NCBI GenBank assembly: GCA_903813345.2
Contig: CAIIXF020000006.1
Span: 12,590,348 to 12,654,347, forward strand
Direction: 5' to 3'
Length of the DNA stretch: 64,000 bases
Source: Owenia fusiformis
Lineage: Eukaryota > Annelida > Polychaeta > Sabellida > Oweniidae
This document shows positions 348-63,981 of the stretch, in pieces. Position numbers and translations under genes: made by a program. The first letter of the stretch is position 1, and every line of letters begins with the position of its first letter. The notes below the pieces were generated by a model. It was not told where the DNA came from. It saw nothing but the letters and a program-made list of their open reading frames with translations, and did not search any database.

Positions 348-11404
<11,057 letters not shown>

Positions 11405-17351: not shown

Positions 17352-20300
17352 ATGATCACTGGAACTTTGATATGTGCAAGATGCAGAGTATTGAAGCAAG
17401 TCTTAGAACATAATAGATTACAATTGCGGACTCTCTCAGCTGTATATCAGACACAATATGATAATCAACATTATAACGAGCCAAAGGTAATGTCATTGCG
17501 TAACTTGAACACTATATGTATAAAGAGTGGATTCAATATCACTGCTGTTATGCACTCGAGTTGTATATTTCGCTGTACACCCGCCAGGATGTTCCACATG
17601 GGTCGTATTTTACATAGAGTTCATAGGGACCATGGAAAAGAAACAACAGAGCTTGATCAAAGCAATGAAAATTTAGAAGGTAACAGTTGTGAACTTTTAT
17701 GTAAATGTTATCCCCCACATGAAATTGCTTTGTGGACTAGAAAAAATGAAGTTTTCTTCATATTATTTTTTGATAGGGCTAAAGGAAAAAAGATAAGCAG
17801 GTTTTGATCACACCTGTGGACCAAAACCTGACATTTCAAAATTTTGTTAAATCTAATCATATACATGTAAGGGCTTCATTATTATAATTTGTGATAACAG
17901 GCAAATTACAAGCACAATTATGAGAAAGATTATATTCTTAACATGGAAACAGTTGCAAAATTCCACAAAACAACTACTAGCAATCTTGGTAAAACAACTG
18001 GTGAAAATTCCCTAGTGCTCATGAAACCCCTGACATGTATTCTTTAAAGTTAATAAAAATTAGATAAGATTATAATTTTATTCAGTTGATTAGAATATCT
18101 TGAATGGCTTTTATATTTCAGAGCTCAAGACATACATTTTTTTATTTATTGTACCAATAAATCCATCCATACATGTGTGGCCATTTCCAAAATATCAATT
18201 AGCCATTGCATTTATCCATCATATTTTTGCAGATGAATTAAGTTCAAGTCACCTGTCAGAGCTTGATGATCACTATCTGCTACCTGAGAATGGACATAAT
18301 GTTTTTATAGTGCAACCAGGTAAATTCTTTATATGCAATCAAGTACCATAGGCGTAGCCAGGGGGATGCAATGCAATAAAAATAAAACCATGAGAAAGAA
18401 GAAAAAAGAGGCTCAATTTCAAAATGTGTCTGGCTCATATTACTTACCATGTCTATCTTTTAAATAAAATCCTCAAAAATACTAACCTTATAAATCCAGG
18501 AAAAAAGAAATATTTTACATTTATGTGGTGTGCATTAAATTTCTGATTAACAAAAAAACTCATGCTATCCATTGTTTTCGGCATATACTTTTGATCATTG
18601 AAAATTGATACATTCAAAACTAGAAGATATCAATTTAGTCCAATTTTTAGATTCTCTAAATTGTCAACTGGATGCAATAATTGGATTTGTTATTTGAATT
18701 TTGTAGATTTAAAAGGCAAGTTACGACAGAGGGATGGCAGTAACATTGAGTTAAAATTACAAGAGGCTATTGCTTTAGTGGATTCACTTCCTAAATGGTC
18801 AGTCCAGGCAACAGTAAGGCTTATTTCATTTTTTATATTTTTGCTTGAATTATTTATAAATGATTTGCCTAGAAACAGTTATCTTTTCTGTCTTAATATG
18901 GATAAAATCACTTTATTATTTTGTTTGACCCAGTATGTGATGCAAAAACATTGTTTTGGTCAAAAATCAATATGGAGAATTGGAACACATAGTAATATCT
19001 ATTTGATATGACCATCTTGTATCAGATGTACATGGTGACCCCAAAAATTGTGACCTTCTAAATTTGGAGGGTTGTAAGGTACAGGGTTGTCACATGCACC
19101 CTGTACTTTGTTTTGACTTTTCCTTTTCTGCTACATCCTTGACATAAGACTCATTTATATTTTTATGTTACCATCAGAAGTGATGACATATTGTGGATAG
19201 TGTTCAGCATTCGGTGGTTGGTGTTTGGCATTCAGTGGTTGGTGTTTGGCATTCAGTGGTTGGTGTTCAAAATGTTACAAGTAAATGTATTTTTGTAATT
19301 CGTATGATATGGTTCATAACTTCTTAAGAAATATATTTTATCAGGGTTTGTACTGTTTTGTTTTTCAAGTATACCCCCAAGTTTCTTTTTAATCTTTACA
19401 GGAGACAGTGTCAATAAAGGAGTCTGGTAAAAAAGAGTTCTTCACTAAAGGGAACTTTGCTGCTATATCACGACAAATAAGGCGAACAGCAAACATCACA
19501 GCAGTATTTGTAAACACCAATAAACTGGAAGGATTACAATTGTCTTTATTACAAAAGGCATGGGGCCTTCCAGTTTATGATAGGTATGTTATAAGGTATA
19601 TTGGTCAATATTAAATGAATATGAACATGCATTAATTACACAAATTCCTAAATTGTTTGTCCTTAAACAATGATTTTATGATTCCCATGGTCTTATTATT
19701 AATGTTTAGTACATTTTTTTCATTGCTGAAGGCCTATTAGACCTGCTGCCATTCTATTTAGAAATTGTCACAGCTAAAAATGCTCTATTTATATGGTTAC
19801 AAAATAAAAACACAATTGTTCAACAATAAAGAAGTTGTTTAATACTTAAATTAACATTTCCGAATAATGAACACAAAATTATAATTAAAAATGTTCTGTT
19901 ATTGTACTTGACTTTTCTTATATACAAATATTTATGCATCATTATGTAATGACTTCATTTATATGTTCTTAAACCTTTCTATAGCAATTTTATGACAAAA
20001 CAGTCTTACAAAACACTGCAAAAACATACTTTCAGACAAAAATAATTAGGATTAAAACCTCTTAATTAAACTGATATTAGACAGACAAGAATGGTTTGAA
20101 AGGTCTATTTTTCTATAAATATGTTTTAATTGAGAAATATAGAGATAGAATTGACCTATTTCTATGAAAAATCTGTTTCTAAATTGTCTTACTGAGTGAC
20201 CAGATCAGCTTGACCTTGGAGTTTTAACACAGGCCATCAATTTCATGTTCCAAATATCACGGGATGTCATCGCCTGATTTGGTCAATGTTAGGGAGCAGG

Positions 20301-23300
20301 TCGTTTTTACAATAAATTTCAATATTTTCACACAAAATATTTTTTTACTGAAAAACTGCTCATTCGCAGAGAAAATGTACTAGCACATGCAATGACAATG
20401 TCAATCACGCTTCTGTACGAAATTCGGCGGAAGTCTTTTATAATCTAATACGAAGTTACTAAAAAAGGCGCGAACGCCCTACACTCAAAATGATCGTTTT
20501 TCCATTATAACTTTTTAACGTAATTTAACGAAGGCTTCTAATTATTATCCAAGATAGTCTAAATACCGATTAAAATATTTCTTACTTCAAACAGATACGC
20601 CGTCTTTTATTCAATTTTTTAAAAAATAATAAAAAATAACTCTTGTCAATGTTAGGGAGCAGTCAATGTTAGGGAGCAAAATGATTTTATCAGAATATTA
20701 AAAATGTAGCAAATGGCCATTTAAAATATGTATGGCATTTATAAACTAAACAATATTGTTTGAATGATTATTTTAAACCCCTTGCCTTAACAAAATTTAA
20801 CAAAATCGATAAAAAAAATTGTTTTGCATTTTTGTTATCTTCAGAAAATGGACTCTCAAAGATTTTTGACGAAGGAAAGTTAATTATTATCATGGATAAT
20901 CTCAGTACATATTGAAATATTTCTTACTTCAAACAGGTACACCTTTCTTTAATTTTTTTAAATAATAAAAAATAAGTATGATCAATGTGGCGGAGCAAAC
21001 AATGCAGTGGGGCGAAATGGTTTTATCAGAATATCAGAGTAATTGGCCTTTACAAACATGTATGTCATTTATAAACTAGACAAGATTGTATGATTGTTTT
21101 ATACCCCTTGGTATAACCTTACAAGCATACAGTATTGCTCAGCACAATATGCACAATTTAACCAGATACAATAATTACATGACATCTCCCTTTATTCATG
21201 ATATTGTATTTAAATGATGAAGCAGTCCAGCCACGTACTGTATGTGTAATCCCAGGTTAATATATAGGGTGTCCCCAAGTCTGCAAGTGAGCCGCTTTTT
21301 GACAATTAAATTCATTCAAAACTTAAATAAAGTAGCCTTAAGCCCAGTATACACCAATGGGGCAAAATCCCACTTGCCCATCGAGTCCGATCTTGCCCTA
21401 TCGAATCCGAACTTGCCCCAATGAGTCCAACGGAGTCCCATGGTTGATGACTTTGCCCCATCAAGTCCCAACGTGCCCCATCGAGCCCCATGGAGTCCCA
21501 TCAAATCCCACCTTGCCCCATTGGTGTATGTTGGGCTTCACATAACATGTGACCTGATCGGAAATCCCACGATGCCCCATGGAAAGAATGAACATGTTCA
21601 TTCTCGATGGGGCAAGATGGGACTCCGTGGGATTTTGCCCCATCCTGCCCCATCGAATCCCATCGAGTCCAACGTGGGACCTCATGGGACTCGATGGGGC
21701 AAGATTATATGCAAGTTGGGGCAAAATCCGACGGAGTCCCATTGATTCCCACGGACTTCATGGGGCAAAATCCCAAAAGGTCCCACTAGGTCCCACGCCA
21801 TGTTAAGTCTATGGAGGTCCCAACTTGTCCCATTGGTGTATACCGGGCTTTAGAGTATCATTAGCAAGTGGTACACATATAACAGAGATCGGTTATATAC
21901 TGCATTGTCTGAGTATTGACAAATTGAAGTATACGTGTAAAAATCTACTATCATACATGTAACTGCGCAATGAGCCCTTCATAGCGTTTGTGCCAGCTAT
22001 CAGGTGATACCCGGTCGTAAAGATAAGTGCGAGACTAACTCTCTTACTTTAATACTAGGAAAATATCAAATCATAGAACTGAAGGATGTCGGAGATTTCT
22101 CAAGCCTATATATCAGTTCAGATAATTTATCATCCACAATTTAGGATTGTGAACTGATGACATCATCAAAAAGTGTATATAACGATACATCCATTCATTT
22201 ACAGTTAGAGGTCAACGAATAAAGAATGAATGGTTCGCATCTAAATATTTCTAAAACGAACGTAAACAGGATTTAGCTGAAAATAAAAAATGCAAAATAA
22301 CCTTTTCAATGATTTTCTTACAATTTTAACGCTTTCCTCCCCAAAGGGTATCAAATAATCATACAAACAAAATTGTTCAGTTTATAAATGCCATACATAT
22401 TTTAAATGGCCATTTGCTACATTTTTAATATTCTGATAAAATCATTTTGCTCCCTAACATTGACTGCTCCCTAACATTGACAAGAGTTATTTTTTATTAT
22501 TTTTTAAAAAATTGAATAAAAGACGGCGTATCTGTTTGAAGTAAGAAATATTTTAATCGGTATTTAGACTATCTTGGATAATAATTAGAAGCCTTCGTTA
22601 AATTACGTTAAAAAGTTATAATGGAAAAACGATCATTTTGAGTGTAGGGCGTTCGCGCCTTTTTTAGTAACTTCGTATTAGATTATAAAAGACTTCCGCC
22701 GAATTTCGTACAGAAGCGTGATTGACATTGTCATTGCATGTGCTAGTACATTTTCTCTGCGAATGAGCAGTTTTTCAGTAAAAAAATATTTTGTGTGAAA
22801 ATATTGAAATTTATTGTAAAAACGACCTGCTCCCTAACATTGACCAAATCAGGCGATGACATCCCGTGAATATAGAACTGTCAATCAAAATCTTGAACTA
22901 TACAGAAGAGCAAGTTATTTTTAGTTTGACTGATGTGAATGAGTTTCATTAAGAATTTTTCTCTGAAGTACAATTGAAATTTTGTAACGAATGTTCAAAA
23001 TTTAATTTATAAGCATTTACAGAATTATTTTTTGATAAATATATACAGGTCAAAGTGACCTACTTGTAACAGACTATTGAAACTATTCTATTTTTAGTAC
23101 AATGAAATAAATCAATAATCATCCATGAATTGTAGATTTTGCAAGAAACAAAAACATCAGAATAAGTAAAAATAAATAAATAAATACATACTAAGTACAT
23201 TAAAAAGGTTCTAATTAGCCACCCCATTCTGAATGCCCAAAGCTTTTGTTCTGTATACCATTAATATTTTAGATACATGTATGGTAGAATATTTGCATTT

Positions 23301-26300
23301 CCAGGTTTACAGTAGTTCTGCAGATATTCAAGGATCATGCAAGAACCAAAGAGGCTAAACTTCAGGTGGCATTAGCAGAAATACCATACTTCAGGTTTGT
23401 ACCTTGGCTTTCTAAGAGAACCCTTGGATTTGTCCTTGTCTTTGTATGCTTGTCAGGTGCCTATTGACTTGTTCCATGTATGAACATTTCAAATCTCAAC
23501 CAGTGTTTTTCTTTCATTTGAAAAAATGTGCCTCACACTGGGGTAGGCTGTCGGTAGTTTGTAAGTAGGGTGGAAAGTTTCAAAATCTTCTGGTCATATT
23601 CAAAATCTACCTGTTCCAAACCATTGGGTAGGTTGATAAAGTAAATGCTGATCTCAACATGTAATATTAAAATAGTTTGGCATGCATAATTGATTATACT
23701 TACATCCTCCATGATCTTTACCTAACTGATTTCAGGTCCAGGTTAAAGGGTATGCATGCTGGTACATTAGATCAGCAGAAAGGAGGCTTGGCCCATTTAG
23801 GAGGCTCTGGAGAAACTTGGATTGAACTACGCAAACGTCTACTTGAGGTATGCTTTTTCTTAAGAAATGCTTTTTTGTTGACTTGAAATATGCTTGTTTA
23901 CTTGAATTACCATTATGCAGAATGTGATAAACTATATAGAAATGCAAGAAAATTATATTTAATTCACATTTAGACAGTGAGGCAGTGAATGCTCAGAGGG
24001 TACATTGTATCATGATCAGTTAGACTTTATCATATCAGAAATCACCCAATTTTACCTTTACATTCATTTTTTCAATTTATTTCATAATTTCTTATGTTAT
24101 ATATGCGGTAAAATCATGCCGCTAGACACCCATGGGCATACATTACGTTATAATATAATTAAATTTTAACATACAGTGAAACCTGTAAAGCGGAACACCT
24201 CTATAAGTGGAACACTTCAATTTAGACCAACTCACTTAATGTTAAATGAACCTCTATAAGTTTCTTTTTATTAGAGTTACCAAAGATGTTCCACTTAGAC
24301 AGGTGTTACTGTACAATGTACAGCTAGACTACATATTCAATATTCGATAGATTCAGAATATTTCGTAAGTTATCTACAATAGGAATGAAAACAAAACAGT
24401 TACCGGAATAAGCCATTGCATACATTATATTTTCTACAGTTAGTAGCAATAGTGAAAGAAATACTTTTTGACAACATTTCCAGGAAAGAGGGATTAAAAT
24501 AAAACGAGATCTTGCTGTTTTGAAGTCAAAGCGCCATCTTTTGAAGAAATCGAGAACAAAGAAGGAAATTCCAATTGTTGCAGTGGTTGGTTACACAAAT
24601 GCAGGTACAGTAATACTGTAATTTAAATATATAATTATCCATACACATATGAATTACATGTATTATTGACATGATCTCATTCTACTTAGAGTCCATGAAT
24701 GTACATGTACAGACTGGTTTTTGAAATTCATTGTGCATGTAATTACATGTACCTTAATTTACCCATCCTTTGAATTTAAGGCTCTAGACACCATCCGCCT
24801 GTAGATGACGTTCTGGACACCTGTGTTCGGAGGATGTAATTTATCAAAATGACCCATTCTCCAACTTTTGACCCGTTCCCTCATTTTAGGTAAAACTAGT
24901 CTTATCAAAGTGCTCACAAATGAAGCTGCTCTCCAGCCCAGGGATCAATTATTTGCCACATTAGATGTCACAGCCCATGCAGGGTTCCTGCCAAGCCACC
25001 TATCTGTATTATATATTGACACGGTTGGGTTCATATCTGATATACCCACCAGCCTGATTGCTTCATTTAGTGCTACCCTAGAGGACATCAGAGAAGCAGT
25101 AAGATTTGTTTATTATATTTTCTAATTTATAATGGAATCATGGGCTTTTGCCTATGATGGAATGAATAAAAGTGATCTGTTGTGATCATGTAAGTTTCTC
25201 AACAGTATCTTGGTGACATGGTTAAAAAGCAATTAATGATATTTTATTTAATTGTGAGTGTTACATATATATGAATGAGAGCAGTGATTTATTGTAATTC
25301 AAACAGAGAAATTATCGTTTATTAAAAGCTCTGTGTAAATATTGTTTTAAATCTTTGAGATGATCATATCACTGTCAATATTCTTCACTCTCTCATTGGT
25401 CTACACATTACATGTGACATAGAAATAAGAAGACGTATTCAACGGTCGCGCCTATCATGTCAGAAAAAAGGGGTATTTAACGGGCGTATTCACCAGTTGT
25501 GTTGTTTTGTAATAGTAATAATCTTGAAAGACATTTCCAACAATAAGAGTGGTGAATATAACAGTGAATAATAAAATAATTAAACAAATATTACATACTA
25601 TTTTTGGTGAATACCTGTTGCACTTTCAATGATTCCACAAGGTGTATTCCCCAAAGCTCAAAGAGCTAGAATCATTAAAAATGAATAAGATATTCAACTC
25701 AATAGAATGAAATATTTGTATAATATTTTTACTTCTTGCTCTGAAAATCAGTTTTGAATTTTTCCTTTCATTTTAAAAGCAAAAGTCAATTATTTTCTAA
25801 AAAAAGAATGAAAAGATCCGAGTGATATATTTTTAAAATTTGTAGACAAATGAAATCTCGATTTTTCCCCATTTTGTGAATCAACAAGGTAACATTGTGA
25901 TTACACAATTTCAGAAAACTTTTTTCCACTCATTCAGTTTTTGTCGACATGACAACTTATATTCAAAAGGTACATGCTTCATCAAATTGTAGAGTAATAC
26001 GTAGAGTAATATTGTTGTTTAGGTTAAACCATCTTGTATGGGTATCTCAAAGTGATGATTCCCCAGTTCCAATTTGAGATCCCTCCAGAACTTTGCTTGT
26101 TTCTTCTCATTGTTACTCCATCTGAGACAGTTATTGTGCTTAATAATCATCTTCACTTTGTCAGGCATCTCATCCTTAGGGATATGTTCCATTAATAGAA
26201 CTATTATCATGTCCCTGTAGTCATCTAGGAGTTTGGCTAAAGCCATGTCCACCTCAAATTGATTCATGCCATCTTTCACCCAACCACGACTCACCACAAA

Positions 26301-29300
26301 TAAAATCTTTCTGCTGGTGTGTATTGCATTTCCCAAAGAGGTGAATAATGAACCACCAGGCGTTATTCGATCATCGTACATTAATTTGAACTTGATATCT
26401 AATCCCCTCTCGAGTTCATTACATAAATCCTTATTTACCCACAATCTTTTTTCACTGTGGTAACTTACAAAAGCGTCATGTTCAATGAGAAGTCCATCTA
26501 AATTTACATCTTGTTCATGCTTGCGTGCAAGTATGATCATTTTCCTATATTGGATATCTTTCCAGAAATGCTTCAATAGCACAAGTGTCACTATTGTGAT
26601 TATTAAAATTAAGCCTCCACTTATCGATGAAACTTCAATGACAAGCTGTGTGTTGCACTCTATCCACATCATTGTAAAATTGTGGATGTATTCGGTTTGT
26701 TTGTATGTTGGTGTTGAACAATTTACTGCAGTATATTTAAACTTATATCTATTTTGTAGAATATTCATTGTGAGCCAGTTACGAAGACCTTTCAGTTGAC
26801 AGTTACAGTCAAAGTTATTTTGATGAAGATTAAGGATCAGACCTCCTCCAATAGGTTTCATGATTTCCAAATTACTTGGGTCAATGAAAGTTATTGCGTT
26901 CCTTGACAAATCCAACACACTTAAACTGTGTAAATCCTTAAAGATACCCCTTTCGATAAATGTAAGTAAGTTGCTTTGGAGGTTCAAATCTCTAAGATTG
27001 TATAGTCCTTTAAATATGCATTGAGGGAGGTGGGATAAGTCATTGCTTTTTAGTGAAAGAAAATTAAGACTGTAACGATCCTGAAAGATTTGACAAAGTT
27101 CTACATCTGAATATTTACATAATGAATTTTCTGATAAGTCTATTTGTTGCAATGATTTTGCAATGTTTAAAAGCCCAATCACTTGCTTAATGTGTGGCCA
27201 AAATGCAAAACTACCACTTGTCATATGCAACTCATGCAAGTTTTTTAAGCCCGACATGTCCAGTGCCATTACCGAACTACTCTTCATGTTAATGCTTAAA
27301 CTTCGTAATCCTGATATATTAAGGTATAACTCTAGTGGATAATAACTCGCAGTTACAATGAATCCACCTATGTCTAGAGTTCTCAATTTATAGAATATCT
27401 CAAATGTATCTTTGGCCACATACATAAAGTTCCACAATACTAAGGTATCAAGGAATTCGGCCAATGGTTCAAACGCATCAGCCTCCAAAATTCCGAAAGA
27501 ATTTCCTAACATGTTTAATCTTCTGAGTCTGGCATAACGTAGTGGTTCAAAAAAGGATTTATCTATCTTTCTTAGAAAAACTCCACATGTTTTAATTTCC
27601 AAATTCTCCACTGCTTTGTTTTGTAGATCATTAAAAACTGTAAGAATATTTTCTGTTCCCAAATTCTGGTTTTGATGAAGAGACAGTTGTTTCCATGATT
27701 TAGGTACCTTGAAGGTTCCAGGTTCAATATGTTCAATAGGATTCATTTCAATGGTTAATCTAACATTACTTCGATTCACAAAATTTTTAAAAGTGTTTCT
27801 TTCAATCTTTATGATACTGCAGTTTATCAGATAAATCGATGATAGATGTTCAAATCCCATAAATGAGCCATTTTTCAAAATTTCAAACTCAAAGTTCTCA
27901 AACCTCAAAGAAGCACAGGACTTGTATTTCTTATCCATGTGTTTCAGGAGATCTCCTAATGGGATTTGGTCAGTTTTCGCTTTTGCTTGACACACACAGA
28001 CCATTCCTTTCTTTTTCTTCAAACTGTATGTGCAAAGGTTAAGGACATTATGCTTCTTTCTGTATGCACTCAATGTATTATCAGCTGAATTATCGGGAAA
28101 CTCGATCTGCCTTCCTAGTGGCTTATTCATATATATCTGCTTCCTTGTTTCGGTAGGGCACACTACCAGCACAATGAATAGAAACAGGAGTATAGGCCCA
28201 ATGTATGACATCATACTTGCAATATTCACTCCTGCAAAATAGATCTTATATTTCAAACATTTACTTTCAGTAAGAAGTTAAGTCATTCAAAAACATTTGT
28301 ATTTTTGATTGAATTAGTGAGGCCTTAGGCTCAGAGTGAGACCAATTAAGCCTGAAACAGAAAATACCAATAGTATTAAAAAGAATAAAAAGTTCAAAAT
28401 AGGAACACAAAAAGTACAACTGGTTATAGAAAACAAATCCCAGCATCTCGAAAATATAATGTATAATATAATGTATAAAGAAAATTATGTTTCTTATTCT
28501 TACCTTGATAATGTGAGTTGATGAAGACTGATTAATGTGTGCAGCTTGGAAATTCTTTAATGCTTTTTCAAAGAGAGTAAAGCTTGTAACAAGTCCAATG
28601 TTCAAGTACTGTTTATTTACTGTTCTGTGTAATCTTTTAATTTGTGTCGGGAAGTCGCTATAACCTTTTGAAGCTGAATATCATACACGCTCTTCAATCT
28701 TTATTTTCAGAGAATGTTTGGTGTCACGGTGTCCTGTTATTAACATCATGGAAGTATGAAGGTTCCACTCATTATATATATATATTATATCTAATAAGGT
28801 TTATTTTATTTTTAAAAATCAACACCATTTGCAAGTGAAATCATCAATTACCCCATCCCCCTTTAATGAAACTAAAACTGTTGATAATTGGACACCATCC
28901 CTTACAATACATGTTCGGGACATAAGTCATCCAGACTCAGAGGCCCAGAACCTGAATGTATATATACATAATACATGTTCATGACATAGGTCATCCTAAC
29001 TCAGAGGCCCAGAACCTGAATGTATATATAGACTCTTCAATCTTTATATTTCTAGGATGTCATAATAATACATGTTCATGACATAAGTCATCCAGACTCA
29101 GAGGCCCAGAACCTGAATGTTTATATAGACTCTTCAATCCTTATATTTCTAGGATGTCATAATGCATGTTCGGGACATAAGTCATCCAGACTTAGAGGCC
29201 CAGAACCTGAATGTATATATAGACTCTTCAATCTTTATATTTCTAGGATGTCATAATACATGTTCATGACATAGGTCATCATAATACATGTTCATGACAT

Positions 29301-32300
29301 AGGTCATCCAGACTCAGAGGCCCAGAACCTTAATGTTTATATAGACTCTTCAATCCTTATATTTCTAGGATGTCATAATGCATGTTCGTGACATAAGTCA
29401 TCCAGACTCAGAGGCCCAGAACCTGAATGTTTATATAGACTCTTCAATCTTTATATTTCTAGGATGTCATAATACATGTTCGGGACATAAGTCACCCTGA
29501 CACGGATGGGCAGAAGCTGAATGTTATACAGACCCTTGAGTCCCTAGAATTACCTAAACATCTCTTGGACAACATGATTGAAGTGTGCAATAAATCTGAT
29601 CTAAATCACAGGTAGGTCAAATAACACTACCCTATTCTGCCTCACTCAGATAACTTATTATCCCATCGAACGAAGTTCGGAGGGATATAGGGAACGCCTC
29701 CCTCCGTCTGTCCGTCCGTCCGTACGTACGTACGTCCGTCTGTCCGTCCGGGCAATAACTCAAATACCGTTGGCCCGATTTTGTTCATATTTTGTACATG
29801 GGGATAGAAGCTCTGCTCAAAAACTGATTTTCAAAATGGCCGCTCATTTAAAAATGGCGGCCATTTTAGTGCCGATTTTACAGTAATTTAGGTACTGCAT
29901 ATTAAACTGTAATAACAATATGTTTTAAATGTAAAAAAGTTATATAGGACATTGATTGAGCTAGAAATGTAAATACAGAAGAAATACATGGCAGCCATCT
30001 TGAAAAATGGCTGCCTTTGCACGTCATTTTACGATTTTTGCTGTAACTTGAAAAGTAGTGGAGCGATTTTGTTCATATTTGGTATGTGAATACTTTAAGC
30101 ATGGCATAATGTCTAATTACTTTTTTGGTAGTAGGCGGCCATTTTGAAAAATGGCCGCCATTTTTACGTGTGTTATTTTACATTTTTTATTATAACTCAA
30201 AAAGTAGTAGAGCGATTTTGTTCATATTTTATATGTGAATACTATAAGCATCGCACACTGTCTAATGACACTTTGGGTAGTAGGCGGCCATTTTTTACTA
30301 TAACTTGAAAAGTAGTGGAACGATTTTGTTCATATTTGGTATGTGAATACTTATGAACCTTGCACACTGTCTCATGACACTTTGCATTTTTACATTTTTT
30401 ACTATAACTCAAAAAGTATTGGAGCGATTTTGTTCATATTTGATATGTGAATACTTTAAGCAAGGCACATTGTAGTTGGCCATTTTGAAAAATGGCCACC
30501 ATTTTTATGTGTATTATTTTACATTTTTTATTATACTTTAAAAAGTTAAAGAGCGATTTTGTTCATATTTGATATGTGAATACTATTGCATTCTGTTGTA
30601 TGACATTTTGGGTAGCATTTACATGTATGTGTGTGCGATTTTTTAAATTTTTATATGTGGCTTATTTTACAAGTACATGTATGCGATTTTATAGGTGGCT
30701 ACTTAAAAGCATATTACTTCTTCTGATGACAACTTGGCTAGTGAGCAACCATTTTGAAAATGATGGCCTTTCTTATGGATGTTATTTTACGATATTTGCT
30801 AAATATTTTGTTTGTAAAAATGCCAGCAATTTCTGTTCGATGGGATTCGCTACGCTTTGGCGTTGGCGTTGTTCTGGTTATAAAAGAAGCTCTGCTTTAC
30901 TCTATAGTAAATTATTGTCTTAGCCAAGGGTAAAATAGCATAAATAAAAAGGTTAATATAGGTTTTCTAAATTATTGTTGGAGTGATGATGGACTTATCG
31001 TCTGATATACCTGTCAAGTAAAAATTAAAATTGGAATTTCTTCTAAAAATCTGTGGAAAAAATCAGGGTTAAAACAGGGTTCTTTTTCTGGTAAATCAGC
31101 TTTTCTAAAAATCATCTCAAATCTAAAAATTAGTATTGTTTGAAAAAAATCTGGGTTAATAAATCTGAAAAAGTGGTAGAATTTGGGGATTTTTAAAAAA
31201 ATCAGGAAAAACTTGGTGTCTCTAAAAAACTTGGGGTTACAAAAATTAAATCAACCCTTCGAAAAATTCAGTAAAAAATCTGGATTGCTAAAGATAAATC
31301 AGGAGAAAAATCTGGGTTTAAAAAAAAAATTAGATAAATCTGGAGTTTTCAAAGAAAATTGGGGTGTTTTGTTGAAAAATCAAGGGAAATGCGAGGTCTA
31401 CAATTTATATGAAAAAAATCTGGATTTTTGAAAGTGGGGTTTTTGACTAAAAATGGCCATTCTCGGTTTGGGGAACGAAGTTCATCACTCTCATTGAGCG
31501 TAATATCCCTGCTTCGGACTTTGATTTTTTTTACATAATATAGATTTGAATGTCTTCTTTTCAATAGTCATAATTTAATATGGGTGATATTTCTAGATTT
31601 TTCATAACACAGTTATTAGCCCAGTTCACTGATGAACTTCTTTCTCCAAATCGAGACTTGCATTTCTTTGAATCTACTGCGCCCTTATCCCTGCGTCGGA
31701 CAATTGCAATATATATCTTGTAGATTTAAATGTCCTATTTCGAATATTTGAATTTAATTTGGATGATATTTCTATATTTTTCATAAAAGAATTATTAGCC
31801 CAGGAGACTGTTCTCCAAACGAGACTTCTCCTTTGAAAGCACTAAAAATGGGATTTCTCCTGATATAAATCAGGACTTGATAGGTGAGTGATACGCATGT
31901 TACTGTGTGTGTTCTTCATCAAATAATCTGTTCAAGTTGAGATGATGTTCCTCAAATGAATTTTGTAGCTCACATGAAGGTGGTGGCATATGTACATCTG
32001 CAGTGACTGGGCAAGGCATTGATGATTTGAAGCTGACACTAGAGGACACTGTTATAACTGCCACTGGCTCTATGAAGAAGTCCTTTAAGGTACCAATGTC
32101 AGGTGATCATCTTAGGTATGTATTGATTAAGAAATGTTATCCTTGAATACTATTATACTAGTCTGAACCCTTACAAAACTTGTTTAGAAATAGGTGCAGT
32201 TGACTTATTTTGATTTAACTTTTAAAGTAAGAATGCATTCAATTAACCTCTTGAATCCCAGGCTCTAAAATCGGTTGAAACCAGAGAATTTTTCATTTTT

Positions 32301-37214: not shown

Positions 37215-46268
<9,054 letters not shown>

Positions 46269-55700: not shown

Positions 55701-58700
55701 TTGACAGGGCTACGCAGCAGCAAGCTTAGTAAACATATGCTACTGGCCTACCAGGGTGTAATTAATCACCGAACTTGCTTGACATAAGAAAGTTCAATTT
55801 TAGCAGCTTTTACCCTAGTGTGTTTCCCAATATATTTTCAGTATTTATTAGTTCATGCAAACTTTGTTTAACACAAAGAGACCCAACCCCTGTAAGTGCC
55901 CCCTCCTCTTCTTGCTAATATCAAGTATACAATATTATCAATGTCAAGTGCCACTGTGAGAGATATTGTTACATTTATAAACATACATGTATATAAAACT
56001 GAAAAATGTAATTCTTAACTGTGATATTGGCTAAAAGCTCTTAAATGACCATGAAAAATCGTGTTAACATATAGTACAGTAGTTAAGATTTTTTAATCGA
56101 GTTCGGAATGGTTTTATTTTAGTATTTTGCCTCAAATATGATATATAAAAGATTTTAAGTGTAACTAAATGATCTTGAAAGACTTATCACAGTGTTTATG
56201 TATGTTTTATTTTTGTATTCCTTAACTGGTGTAAGATATTGTTGTGAAAGAGTCTTTCAGGCAGCCCTCAGCAGGAATATATGTGGTGCAGCCTGGCTAT
56301 TTAGGTAGGCCAATATTTACTTACCTGATCATAAAATCTCTTATTGGGTCAATTTAAAAAACAGGTTTCATAACATTTCATTACAAAACTGTGTTTGTTG
56401 TATCATTGGTAATTGGAAATTCCAGGGATTTGACTTGTCCAGTACATTGACTGGCTGGCTTCTCTGTCATTTGTCTTTCAGTGCACTGACTTGTCTTTCA
56501 ATGCATTGACTTGCTTTTCAGTGCATTGACTTGTCTTTCAGTGCATGTACTTGTCTATAGTGCATTGACTTGCTTTCCAAATTGAGTTGTCTTCAGTACA
56601 TGGACTTGTCTTTCAGTGCTTTGACTTGCTTTCCAAATTGACTTGCTTTCCAAATTGACTTGTCTTCAGTGCATTGCCTTGTCTTAAGTGCTTTGATTTG
56701 TCTTGCAGGTTTTGTTGTTCTACCAGGGAGGAAGTGGGTGTTGGAGACTGATAGAGAATATGAGGTGCTCATTGAAATATATGACAAAGACAGCCATAAG
56801 CTTTTCCCTGCTGATGTAAGTTCACTTCTGTAAAATAAACTGATGTACTTTAATAAATTGTCTATATAATCTAGTCCATAGTTCTCAGGCATATTCATAG
56901 CATGTATAGATAAATGAATCCCATATGAATACATAAAATAATACAAATGTAGGTTACCGTTTACAATGGTACTTGTTAAATCTCAAATACCTGCTATTGG
57001 GCTAATCATAATGTTAAAAATTAATTCCACTACTATATATGCTAAAACAAGAGAATTCTGAAGTCATAATAGTACGTGACGAAGATCAGTATATCAATGT
57101 GCATTGAAACACATTAATAATTCTATTTAGGGGAGGGGCATGTTAAGTCCATGTTAATTAATGACAAATGTACATGTTTTTTGCAAAGCAGGGTCTTATT
57201 ACTTGAACTAAATCATTAAATGTTTGGTTTCGTTCATGGGGGAGAGGAGGTGATTAAGACACATTCAAAATATTGACCAGAGCACGGTTTTGATGCGTTT
57301 TGTTATGTCCCCACCACATAGTGTGGGGCCATATTGTCGGCCTAGGCGCGTCCGTCTGTCCGTCTGTCTGTCCGTCTGTCTGTCCGTCTGTCTGTCCGTC
57401 TGTCCGTACGTCCGGCAGTTTTCTCCAAAACCGCTACAGATATCACCTTCAAATTTTCAGGGATAACTTATGAGTGCATACAGATGTGGATGAAAAAAAA
57501 TTAACTCGATACCTACTTCCTGTCGGCCATTTTGAAGTCAAATGCTAAAATCCTTGTCTGCAAACTTTAAGAAAAACTGCTTCACAGTTGCTTTTAAAAC
57601 TTTAACATCTTGTTCAGCTCACTTCATTCTAGATCTGATTAGGTTTTGGACCTGCTAGCTCAGTCATGTCAGCCATTTTGAATGTCTTAAGAAAAGTTAG
57701 CGCGTGATAATACTTTGTATCATATTGAATGGTGTTTTTGAACCACATAGTGTGGGGCCATATTGTCGGCCTAGGCGCGTCTGTCTGTCCGTCTGTCTGT
57801 CCGTCTGTCCGTACGTCCGGCAGTTTTCTCCAAAACCGCTACAGATATCACCTTCAAATTTTCAGGGATAACTTATGAGTGCATACAGATGTGGATGAAA
57901 AAAAATTAACTCGATACCTACTTCCTGTCGGCCATTTTGAAGTCAAATGCTAAAATCCTTGTCTGCAAACTTTAAGAAAAACTGCTTCACAGTTGCTTTT
58001 AAAACTTTAACATCTTGTTCAGCTCACTTCATTCTAGATCTGATTAGGTTTTGGACCTGCTAGCTCAGTCATGTCAGCCATTTTGAATGTCTTAAGAAAA
58101 GTTAGCGCGTGATAATACTTTGTATCATATTGAATGGTGTTTTTGAGTTTTCATACTTTAACTATTTAGTAGCTTTATAAATAATTTCAGATGTACTTTG
58201 CTGTAAAAGCCTACTTTATTGTTAACAGTAGTTATATGTGATAATTTTGTAAAAAGAAATCAGCAAAAACTCATAAGGACTTTTTTATTGTCGGCCATTT
58301 TGGATTTTTCAGTCCTAAAATCTTGTCTGTGAAGTCTTGTCTGCGCGTTTTCAGGTGAACCGTTTGGTGGATCGATTTCAAATTTTCAGGGATGATTCTT
58401 AGTATAAAAATCTAGATCTCATTAGTTTTTTGGCATTCTGGGTAAATGTCAAGGCAGCCATTTTGGATTTTCCGTCCTAAAATCTTGTCTGTAAAGTCTT
58501 GTTTACTCGTTTTCAGGTGAACCGTTTCGTAGATCAATTTCAAATTTTCAGGAATGATTCTTAGTATGAAAATCTAGAACTGATTAGTTTTTTTGCATTC
58601 TGGGTAAATGTCAAGGCAGCCATTTTGGATTTTCCGTCTTAAAATCTTGCCTGTAAAGTCTTGTCTACGCGTTTTTAGGAGAACGGTTTGATAGATCAAT

Positions 58701-61700
58701 TTCAAATTTTCAGGGATGATTCTTTGTATGAAAATCTACATCTGATTACTTTTTTTGCATTCTGCGTAAATGTTAAGGCAGCCATTTTGGATTTTCTGTC
58801 CTAAAATCTTGTCTGTAAAGTCTTGTCTACCCGTTTTCAGGTGAACCGTTTGGTAGATCAATTTCATATTTTCAGGGATGATTCTTAGTATGAAAATCTA
58901 CAAACAGATTAGTTTTTTGACATTCTGGGTAAATGTCAAGGCAGCCATTTTGGATTTTCCATCCTGAAATCTTGTCTGTAAAGTCTTGTTTACATGTTTT
59001 CTGGTTAACTGTGTGACGGATCAATTTCAAATTTTCAGGGGTGGTTCTTAGTATGATAATCTAGAACTGACTAAATTTTTGGCATTCTGGGTAAATTTTA
59101 AGGTGGCCACTTTGGATTTTCCGTCTTCAAATTGTGTTGGTAAAGTCTTGTCTACTCATTTTCAGGATAACCATTTCACGGGATCACCACTTGGTGGGGA
59201 CATTTTGTACACATTTGTGTTCTTGTATATCCATGTGTATTGAATCTAATTCACCTATTGTTTCCAGAATGTGAGGATCTCTGCCATTTTTCCTAAAGAG
59301 TACTTTAAAGTGTTGTACTCATCACTAAATGGTACCTACCATAGAGTACACACTTTACAGCGAGGCTTCCTGGATATAGAAGGCACACTCAAGTCTGTCA
59401 TACAGCAGGTAACAATAGTGTTGTTTTCAGAGCTGAATCATGTCAAAATATATATAAAATATAATAATAATATATATATATAACTCAGTTATTCTACAAT
59501 AATAAAATTAATGATTATTCATTTGAGTGTAGTGGAACCAAATGCTGATTTCTCAAATATTTAATGTTCTAGGATGGAACAGAGCTGCCAATCTTGCCAC
59601 TCATCCAAAATAGTCAAGATGTTGAGATATATGATAGGATCAGTGTTAAACCCCCAATATTAGTGGTTCCCTGGGACCCTATTACCAAGGCAACATACTC
59701 ATACCAGCTACAGGTAAGATCAGTGTGAATGTAAACCCATAATGAGTATAATGCTATGTGTTATGACTGCTTAGTGAATTTAAGGTACAGAAACTTTTGT
59801 ATAATGCTCATAATATATAAAGTTTTGATAAAAGTTTGCATTGTACATATTTAGTGTGTACATGTAAAAACTTATTGTATATTTTTCGTTGAAGGCTGAA
59901 GGTGGTAGTGGCAATTACACCTGGAGCTCTTCAAATGAGAAGATAGGAAGTGTGAATGTACGAGGCTTGGTGTCATCGGGTGTGATTGGACAGACAACTG
60001 TGACAGCTGCTGATATGAGGAATACTGCACACACTGGATCAATGGTGGTGAGTACCCTGGGAACACAGACTAGTGTATTGCCCTCTGAGTAGAACTAATG
60101 GATCATTTGTGATAAAATACCCTTTGGGCACAGTTTTGACATTCTTCACATATAGCGCTACCAACTGTCACATTTATATAAGATAATGTTTTTTTTATAC
60201 TGTGTTCAGTTTTTTCCATTGACATTGTTTAGTTTGTGGTTTTTACATCTCCCTTGACCCTGCATCTAAAGAAACAACCCATGTTTAACAGGGCTTATTA
60301 ATGTAATACATATAAATTCACAGTATCACCGTTGATATTTTTCATTGAATTATGGCTTCATATGTGTGAATATCTCATTCTGTTCATGAATTCATATGAA
60401 CCATATTCTCTCTGTTGTGTTATAGATGTATGTCACTCCCCCTACGGATGCATACTTTGTGCCCTCACCAGTGGAAGCTGAGATTGATTCAACATTAGAG
60501 TTACCGCTAGCTGCCTTCACAAACCTGCCTAATGGTAAACTATCTGTTTGATTACTCATGAAAATAATAGTCAGGGCCCCGTTTTTGTACCGTTCGTAGT
60601 AACGAACGTTCGTAAGTCCATTGTTTAATTTGCGAATTTCGCAAAGTTGCATTTTCGTAAGATTCGTAAAGTTACGAACGATTCGTAAATTCACGAAAAT
60701 AGTGACGTCATGCCTGTTTTCGTTCGTAGATTTAATACCACCTCTGACCCTTTCGTAACTTTGCGAACGGCCTCTTATTTATTCATTTATATTGTGATTT
60801 GTGACGTTTTGTCATTCTAAATCAGAGAACACAAAGGGCAACACAGTTATCAACGTATTATCAACCTATTTCTATATCTATTTTAGTACTTTTCATGGAA
60901 TCTTTTTTTTATAAAATTCATATTGTATGACTTTGGTTTTATTGTTTTGATCAACCCTGTTTGTTGTTCTATCTGTCCTGACAACTGTGGAATATGACGT
61001 CAACCAATTCGTAAATCTTACTCTAAACAATTGGAAAGTTACGAATGACTTGCGAAAGCGTACAAAAATGATCCATTCGCAACTTTACGAATTCATAACT
61101 CATTCGTAACTTTTTAAATATTTACGAATTTACGAATTGCGAACGTTCGTTACTACGAACGGTACAAAAACGGACTCCTGGATATGACATATAAGCATTG
61201 GTCTGTAATGTGAGGCTGTGAAAATGTAAGTTTGCCTAATGAAGAATAAGCAATAAAAGTGCATTTTTATCTGTAATGGAACCATTTTTCATTCAGGCCC
61301 TACTGAATGGTGCATTTTTTTTTATTTATTTATTGCAGGTCTTGGACGTCATATGTTTGCTGACTGTAGGTTCCTACCTTGGAAAGTGACCATAACAGAT
61401 GGCAATGTGTTCACTCACATTGAAGGTTAGTACATCAGAATATCAGTGAATGATTTTGTTTCAGTTCAATGCTCTCCATATTTTTTATTTCCCAATTTAT
61501 ATATGAAAGAACTGAGCAAGTAAAATCCTAAATCTATAACCAAATTTTGAAGTTGGTTCTTTATTCATTCAATTATCATGTATCAATTATCATATCATGT
61601 TGATTGTTAAGAGGAATCATGATATTACAGTTATAATTGCTGATGTTTTAGGTATATGCAATGTAGTAAATCGTAACAACTATCTTGGTTATTGGAACTG

Positions 61701-62345: not shown

Positions 62346-63981
62346 CACTGTTGCTCATAAATATGGAATATTAGATTTGGCAGCTCAGAATTCTAAGTTT
62401 GGAGTAAGAGAACATTTATTTGGAGTTGGCTCAGACATTTATTCTCTAGGCAAATCATAACCACATATTTCACCTACAAATCAACATTTTTTAGAGAAAA
62501 AATATTAACATTAAAGTTTAGAAAATTACTGTTACTTAAACAGGGGTACGCTAAGAATTTTTGCATTTTCAAAACGCCCCGATCCAAATCGTCATGTAAA
62601 ACAGATCAAACAAAATAAACATCTGGTCATGAAGATTGAAGTGTCATCTATCCAATGATAGCACTAATATGTGTTATGTCCTCTTTGTGCTGCAATCAGA
62701 GCATCGGCCCTACGAGACCAGCATTGAATGAAACATCTGACCTTTCTAAGTGAAATAAGGCCCAATTCCTCAATCTGGGCAGTGCGTAACGTGTCTAAAT
62801 TTTGAGGTGGGGGTCCAAGTCACGAATCTCATTACCAGGGTCGTCTCACATTTGCTCTGCATTAATCGGATTGGCTGACTGTTGTGCTCATGGTAGCTGC
62901 TCCACATTGCCTGCCCTGATATAATCCAACACGATGCCACTAGCATATGCAACAGCATGATCATTCTGCAGTTGAATGTTGCCCCAAAACACTCTGTTTA
63001 CATGTGGTACTTGATGGAGGTCCAAAAGGTCAATTTGCTCTGAAATTATGTTTGGGAATAACCAAGGGGGTGCAATTTCTGTAGTACTGCTCCAAACAAC
63101 CTCTGTAATACTGCTCCAAACATAAATAGGGTCGCCTTCATGGACTACCACGTCAGTAAGTGTCCTTATTGTCTCTTTCCCCTCGTCTATGACAGAAACG
63201 AACACAATTATCAACTTTGTGGAGGACACATCTTATTTCTTCACATGCTGTCATATGACACCAACGTTTTCGTGCTTTCCTGCCCATTGAAGGCACCTTT
63301 CTTTGTTATGATCAGTCAGCTGTGGTCTCTTTAAAGGTGTCATGGCCTTGCATCCGTTATAAAGAAATCACTTGTTGTCTATAGCTCTGGAACACTGGTT
63401 TTGAGGTGAGACAGCCATTCATCTCGTAAAAACTACTGGTTGACTTAAAGCGATTTTGATGACATAAATGCAGCAGGTGGTGGTCTTTTCTTACATTTTT
63501 CTCTCTAGGGCTACTATTGCTGTGACCTGGAGTCATATTCCAGTGCCTTTGGTACCCCTGAAAAATTTTAGAGACTGTTCCTGACACACCCCTAGGGTCC
63601 TGGCAATGGCAGTTTGTTTCATGCCAGAGAGCACCATCCCTATGACCTGCCATGCTCTTTTTTCACTTATTCTATGGGGCATGCCTTCTAAAAACTCTTC
63701 CAACTCTAAATTAAATTTTTATAAAATGTGCACAATGATTACAACTAAGATTTGGACACCTCTTTCAAGTTACCAATATCATGAGGTCATGGGTTCACCT
63801 GAGTGAATACAAGTTTAATCAACCATAAATGTTTTAACTTTTCATACCATTCAGTTTTATATGCAAAACTGATGAGGGAATGAGAACACATTACAAATTT
63901 TCATCAAAATGTTATCATTTTGTAGAAATTCCATCGAACAGTTCGTATCTATAAAATATTCCATATTTATGAGCAACAGTG
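62346..63981 (-). mobile_element. Full-length, inactivated Tc1/mariner element, TSD TA
   Basis: CACTGTTGCTCATAAATATG and its inverse at 63962-63981 (TIR about 28 bp) are flanked by TA at 62344-62345 and 63982-63983, 1636 bp. On the minus strand, broken transposase frames are seen. An N-terminal HTH part lies around 63600-63400 (ALWHETNCHCQDPRGVSGTV). A catalytic part lies around 63150-62780 (NDHAVAYASGIVLDYIRAGN, followed in another frame by the region after the catalytic motif). Stops and frameshifts separate them, so it is not autonomous. It lies in the NUP210 intron after exon 15. Confidence 0.9.

Follow-up and report, generated by a model that had tools for sequence, protein, structure and literature searches.

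Why should the intron before a single coding exon end in a run of imperfect copies of its own acceptor, each followed by a copy of the exon start that the acceptor serves? The question is raised by exon 9 of a gene for a mitochondrial-ribosome GTPase, GTPBP6/HflX, in the annelid Owenia fusiformis, which lies in a stretch of 64,000 nucleotides from contig CAIIXF020000006.1 (assembly GCA_903813345.2, forward-strand positions 12,590,348 to 12,654,347); this whole stretch is called the window below, and all coordinates are counted from its first base. The array is real, and its kind has already been described in lancelets, under the name of mirages. We consider it likely that the array is a minisatellite of this type, which duplicates an intron–exon boundary, with the working exon as its terminal member, partial exchange of sequence between array and exon, and decoy acceptors that splicing neglects.

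Six imperfect tandem copies of about 94 bp, here U1 to U6, occupy 28906-29462 on the plus strand, directly 5' of exon 9 (29463-29611, plus strand; 149 nt, with donor CAG/GTAGGT). From the reading frame, the start of exon 9 is the last and working member of the array, and the end of U6 supplies its acceptor. The unit consists of exon 9 bases 1-84, that is, codons 1-28, followed by about 10 acceptor bases. U1 (28906-28966) is partial, without an acceptor of its own and with its 3' third missing; U2 (28967-29055) lacks its first 5 bases; U3 (29056-29152) is 97 bp long through a 3-bp insertion; U4 (29153-29246) and U6 (29369-29462) are 94 bp each; and U5 (29247-29368) reaches 122 bp through an internal 28-bp duplication. 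Decoy acceptors 1 to 4 stand at the ends of U2, U3, U4 and U5, respectively, and the final bases of U6 are the acceptor of the working exon. Past codon 20, one extra base in the copies breaks collinear homology to the exon, and a TAG stop stands where the exon has CAG; once the extra base is dropped, exon nucleotides 63-84 match the copies at 16 of 22 positions, a value that none of 20,000 shuffles reaches.

Tandem Repeats Finder recovered the array in rows over 28906-29537 with periods of 64, 94, 122 and 216 (basic period 94), and a repeat finder returned seven register-matched places, the seventh being the true exon. The repeat structure itself excludes chance, and the original prediction of a tandem array of acceptor plus exon start at this exon is borne out by both programs and by the register with the exon. 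Exon 9 also carries the G4 motif, as had been proposed, in the form NKSD, and the array, which spans codons 1-28, ends short of it. The accompanying statement that each unit carries TATATTTCTAG/GATGTC was a little too strong: this junction occurs five times, at the four decoys (AG ends at 29055, 29152, 29246 and 29368) and at the true acceptor (29462), but no acceptor precedes U1 or U2. Four decoy acceptors for six copies means that the splice signal is kept in many copies, not all.

The assignment of the gene follows from homology of its G domain. Residues from exons 8 and 9 have human GTPBP6 as their best PDB match (7of2, E=3.5e-46; the first 12 residues of the query derive from intron sequence and lie outside the aligned match), and the HflX profile TIGR03156 gives 158.5 bits on a 159-residue part of the protein, below its whole-protein cut-off of 216.75. 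Judged by this G-domain homology to human GTPBP6 and TIGR03156, the gene is a GTPBP6/HflX GTPase. Exon 8 ends and exon 9 begins in phase 0, the frame continues from the one into the other, and the nine modelled exons (1-9), separated by introns with AG/GT borders, join into an open frame of 461 codons.

The relationship between array and exon is a mosaic. Pairwise likeness among the copies is 88-97%, and likeness to the exon start is 72-76% for U2-U6 and 85% for the partial U1. Over exon nucleotides 1-32, four columns vary among the copies and none is fixed against the exon; over nucleotides 33-60, four columns again vary and seven are fixed against it. Were seven fixed differences placed at random over 60 bases, the probability that all would miss the first 32 is 0.003, and over 84 aligned bases the exon differs from a typed copy consensus at 14 positions, all past base 32 (P=0.0006). 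The interior copies are homogenised, and the exon is excluded from that homogenisation beyond base 32 only; on the contrast in fixed differences, its first 32 bases look like one more member of the pool, and the rest do not. We infer that exchange between array and exon is limited by selection to the acceptor and the first ~32 exon bases. The array looks old and partly homogenised.

A second array in the window allows comparison. On the minus strand at 2590-3435, eight decoy copies, the first 125 bp long and the other seven 103 bp each, precede an exon start of KRR1 at 2589; the exon was identified by its match to human KRR1 (7mq8, E=1.8e-22). With nine acceptor sites, eight decoys and the true one, at 3435-2589 on the minus strand, this array has the same geometry as that of GTPBP6, as originally proposed.

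It had further been suggested that the GTPBP6 array preserves an older version of the exon, with the copies reading HPDSEAQ, nearer to the usual HflX/GTPBP6 pattern than the HPDTDGQ of the true exon. The exon does read HPDTDGQ, and HPDSEAQ is the translation in four of the six copies (U1, U3, U5b and U6), but U2 reads HPNSEAQ and U4 HPDLEAQ. The direction of change was judged against human GTPBP6 and 13 bacterial HflX proteins, eight alphaproteobacterial and five other, drawn from 12 plasmid records (eight alphaproteobacterial, four others) and one locus in a bacterial metagenome-assembled genome. That locus was the only orthologue found in the genome contigs searched, the viral contigs searched for GTPBP6/HflX orthologues gave none, and the plasmid search gave bacterial or archaeal HflX only, among the best 60 of 89 records.

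The E of the copies is found in five of the eight alphaproteobacterial proteins, in human GTPBP6 and in two of the five other bacteria; their A is found in seven of the eight and in none of the five, and the human residue is L. At those two sites the exon's D and G are absent from all eight alphaproteobacterial proteins, D occurring in one of the five others (Haloplasma) and G likewise in one (Nonomuraea). The remaining two sites lean the other way. At the S/T site the copies' S occurs in one alphaproteobacterial protein of eight and T in five, with A in the human protein; at the N/K site the copies' N occurs in none and K in four, and human GTPBP6 also has K. By this comparison, the copies probably keep the older residue in E and A, and the exon in T and K. 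Both sides have changed, since the copies' E and A fit alphaproteobacterial HflX better while their S and N look derived. Measured against alphaproteobacterial HflX, the claim of nearness stands for E and A but not for S and N, and TIGR03156 favours the copy version by 1.1 bits only (159.6 versus 158.5). The simpler proposal that the copies are the ancestral exon is rejected: S, N, the extra base and TAG look derived, and in KRR1 it is the exon, not the copy consensus, that equals the human protein at three amino-acid-changing sites (the M-to-L change among them is present in four of the seven copies of 103 bp). The copies may be a partial fossil of the exon; on the residues compared, the 'older version' reading is half correct for GTPBP6, and KRR1 gives it no support.

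Codon positions bear on the same question. Nine of the 14 differences between exon and copies fall at third positions (p=0.017), or, when the majority consensus is used, 10 of 16 (p=0.016), as expected if many of the differences arose in the coding copy. Pooling GTPBP6 with KRR1 gives 13 of 21 (p=0.007), or 14 of 23 with the majority consensus (p=0.006). Assuming that 75% of exon changes are at third positions, the rough share of changes on the exon side is 0.70-0.74, but its range, 0.04 to above 1, is so wide that the figure is a lean and not a measurement.

Several points weigh against exchange confined to the exon start and against a coding-side origin of the differences. The contrast between fixed and variable columns (0/4 versus 7/4) gives p=0.05 one-sided and 0.08 two-sided. 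The value of P=0.0006 comes from a typed consensus whose codon 7 is CGG, as in the exon but in only a minority of the copies; with the majority CAT at that codon there are 16 differences, two of them in the first 32 bases (P=0.016), although the column counts are independent of this choice. Constraint on the peptide VIIHVRDIS may explain part of the 5' identity. The third-position lean in KRR1 is weak (4/7, p=0.17). Finally, anatomy, homology, mosaic and reading frames are direct observations, and exchange, age and splice choice are read from them.

A boundary-duplicating minisatellite would account for these observations in a few steps. An ancestral tandem duplication would have taken about 84 nt of exon 9 together with about 10 nt of the preceding acceptor, and slippage or unequal exchange would then have amplified the duplicated boundary into the intron. 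Exchange between array and exon may still go on in the acceptor and the first ~32 exon bases, or may have reached them lately, without harm. Exchange further in would be purged, because it would import the copies' frameshift and stop, and there the exon would have diverged under coding constraint. The copies would in consequence hold a mix of older exon spelling (E and A) and decay (S, N, the additional base and TAG).

A probable relic bears on the age and source of the array. About 190 bp 5' of it, the segment 28670-28717 on the plus strand is probably a degenerate older copy of the unit, judged by its sequence: it contains an in-frame KLNIIHALQSL followed by an acceptor-like TTTTCAG. The peptide, encoded at 28671-28703, corresponds to KLNVIQTLESL at exon codons 18-28, with 24 of 33 bases identical, and it is the sole place at that level among 63,307 plus-strand positions (outside about 28901-29560); the minus strand has none. 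Aligned to copy U4 plus 30 nt, the relic scores 51, which a single dinucleotide shuffle in 1000 attains and no other stretch among 308 does. The signal is weaker when only the exon serves as query (its score is reached by 15 of 1000 shuffles and five of 308 stretches), and the blastn E value of 0.30 equals that of an unrelated match at 62616.

The relic also lends something to a different origin, in which not this exon but a divergent sequence, from a GTPBP6 paralogue or a separate haplotype lineage for instance, gave rise to the array; the 3' differences would then have been present from the start, and later conversion would have made the 5' ends alike. The nine differences from the exon among the 33 bases are distributed in a coding-like way (five at third positions, four at first and none at second), and the identity of array and exon shifts abruptly past base 32, as such a history would have it. 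However, a second gene would be required, of which none is seen in the window, and a local tandem origin followed by old divergence accounts for the same pattern. We regard a divergent source as unlikely.

The consequences for splicing depend on how the decoys compare with the true acceptor. Their last 12 intron bases and the following GATGTC are identical to it, and at most one base differs in the last 20. Joining each of the four decoys to the normal exon 9 donor in constructed reading frames leads to a premature stop in every case. By a donor-scoring matrix, the exon 9 donor scores 11.2, the best of the nine in the model, and the other eight score 4.6-8.5; the donor-like sites of the copies, AAT/GTATAT or AAT/GTTTAT, score -0.5 (U1, U2 and U4) or -4.5 (U3, U5 and U6), and every GT site of the copies from position 29056 onward scores 1.94 or less. 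The decoys are most likely ignored, with exon definition favouring the last acceptor, since that acceptor lies closest to the exon 9 donor, which is strong, and the donors of the copies are weak. On this evidence from sequence, the array, real as it is, probably has no function in splicing.

The copies could conversely be used, each spliced as a micro-exon of 60-63 nt, giving GTPBP6 isoforms with an in-frame duplication of 20-21 residues. The phase-0 start of exon 9 would permit it, and inclusion of U3 (63 nt), U4 or U6 (60 nt each) keeps the constructed transcript open; inclusion of U5 (88 nt), however, breaks the frame. The donors of the copies, at -0.5 or -4.5, compare poorly with the 4.6-11.2 of the model's nine by the same matrix, and the next acceptor lies only 34 nt from each donor of U3-U6, a distance that makes splicing of U6 to the exon hardly feasible. 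Micro-exon use was rejected as frame-compatible but poorly served by its donors, and we think it very unlikely. It is most improbable that a transposable element or satellite carrying an acceptor by accident makes up the unit, for although other satellite-like arrays do occur in the window (57373-58146 and 58294-59177), the repeated sequence is that of exon 9, lies in register with it and ends at the working exon, and the 64-kb window holds no other convincing copies: no dispersed copy was found there but the local relic, the best E value with the exon as query was 0.3, and none of 308 other window stretches exceeded a score of 43 with the unit as query.

The modelled exons 1-8 of GTPBP6, which join in the open frame, lie on the plus strand at 17352-17679, 18233-18319, 18707-18813, 19402-19583, 23305-23394, 23736-23847, 24484-24604 and 24890-25098. 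Intron 8, which holds the array, also nests a 752-codon open frame on the minus strand (26019-28277), which by eye we take to be leucine-rich receptor-like or Toll-like receptor-like. Intron 4 contains inverted copies around TCAATGTTAGGGAGCA / TGCTCCCTAACATTGA at 20260-20680 and 22430-22850, perhaps a transposon with inverted ends.

Repeats occur at other exon boundaries in the window as well; these are a plain count, and no enrichment at splice sites is claimed. KRR1 has, in addition to its acceptor array, a duplication of an exon end and donor at 10327-10505 on the minus strand (92 bp, 1.9 copies, 98% matches), with the donor GTAGGT in both copies and an exon that matches human KRR1 (E=3.4e-15). 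Directly before a NUP210 exon, which was identified by match (E=6e-7) and starts at 56709 on the plus strand, lies a 20-bp array at 56471-56708 (12.6 copies, 75% matches). Seven of its units are TTGTCTTTCAG-like, with a pyrimidine-rich stretch plus CAG or TAG, and resemble the true acceptor, and they are without exon sequence. The NUP210 gene region further contains a 405-bp perfect tandem pair and a 162-bp array (57373-58146, 58294-59177). On the minus strand, a 68-bp array of 3.4 copies at 38298-38528 ends about 50 bp before the acceptor of a presumed SH2/SH3-domain gene.

A more far-reaching interpretation is possible, and we offer it tentatively. The GTPBP6 array may be an old local reservoir of earlier exon alleles that still writes the acceptor and the first ~32 coding bases of exon 9, with selection barring deeper exchange, in a genome that repeatedly grows acceptor arrays (at GTPBP6, at KRR1 and perhaps at NUP210), its introns becoming longer through duplication of their 3' ends.

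The GC content of the window, at 33-36%, does not match that of amphioxus (about 41%); it speaks against a cephalochordate host, the sole host group in the passages on mirages, and probably for some other animal lineage. Each structural feature of mirages that was compared is present, at the level of sequence, in the GTPBP6 array: it spans the boundary, ends in the working copy, keeps the splice signals in part and is homogenised. According to the excerpted text of the two reports on amphioxus, mirages affect BflGb6, BflGb9, Adh3, TnC and PGBD5, have units of 10-160 bp and lie at the 5' or 3' ends of exons; splicing is normal for the globins (from reverse-transcription PCR data), Adh and TnC, and the BflGb6 and Adh3 mirages vary in copy number between haplotypes or somatically (PMC3087553; PMC3902484). 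As far as those excerpts describe them, the amphioxus mirages and the GTPBP6 array share minisatellite-like tandem copies across an intron–exon boundary, splice signals retained in many copies though not in every one, and an inside that is homogenised while the boundary of the cluster is excluded. They differ in the genes concerned; moreover, the GTPBP6 copies encode residues that depart from those of the exon, and what is probably an older relic can still be seen. Among the matches listed in the literature search, these two papers were the only ones on mirages, and none described arrays of this type in other invertebrates, molluscs included.

Two other systems invite comparison. Human duplicated genes have variable internal tandem repeats at exon–intron boundaries (PMC2812944), but these have units of 30 bp on average, belong to genes in primate segmental duplications and were found through the comparison of paralogs and transcripts. 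In potato, an RNA-dependent RNA polymerase gene is reported to have gained an intron by tandem genomic duplication (PMC4974935). It shares with the GTPBP6 array the use of within-gene tandem duplication as raw material for introns; the potato duplication is recent, however, and yielded a gained intron, whereas in GTPBP6 an existing intron grows and no new exon appears.

With the array at GTPBP6 exon 9, the range of mirage-type arrays would probably extend beyond the lancelets from which they were described. The array would also provide a natural test of how the spliceosome chooses one among five acceptors that share a core sequence, and of how minisatellites at exon boundaries may exchange sequence with coding exons and may lengthen or create introns.

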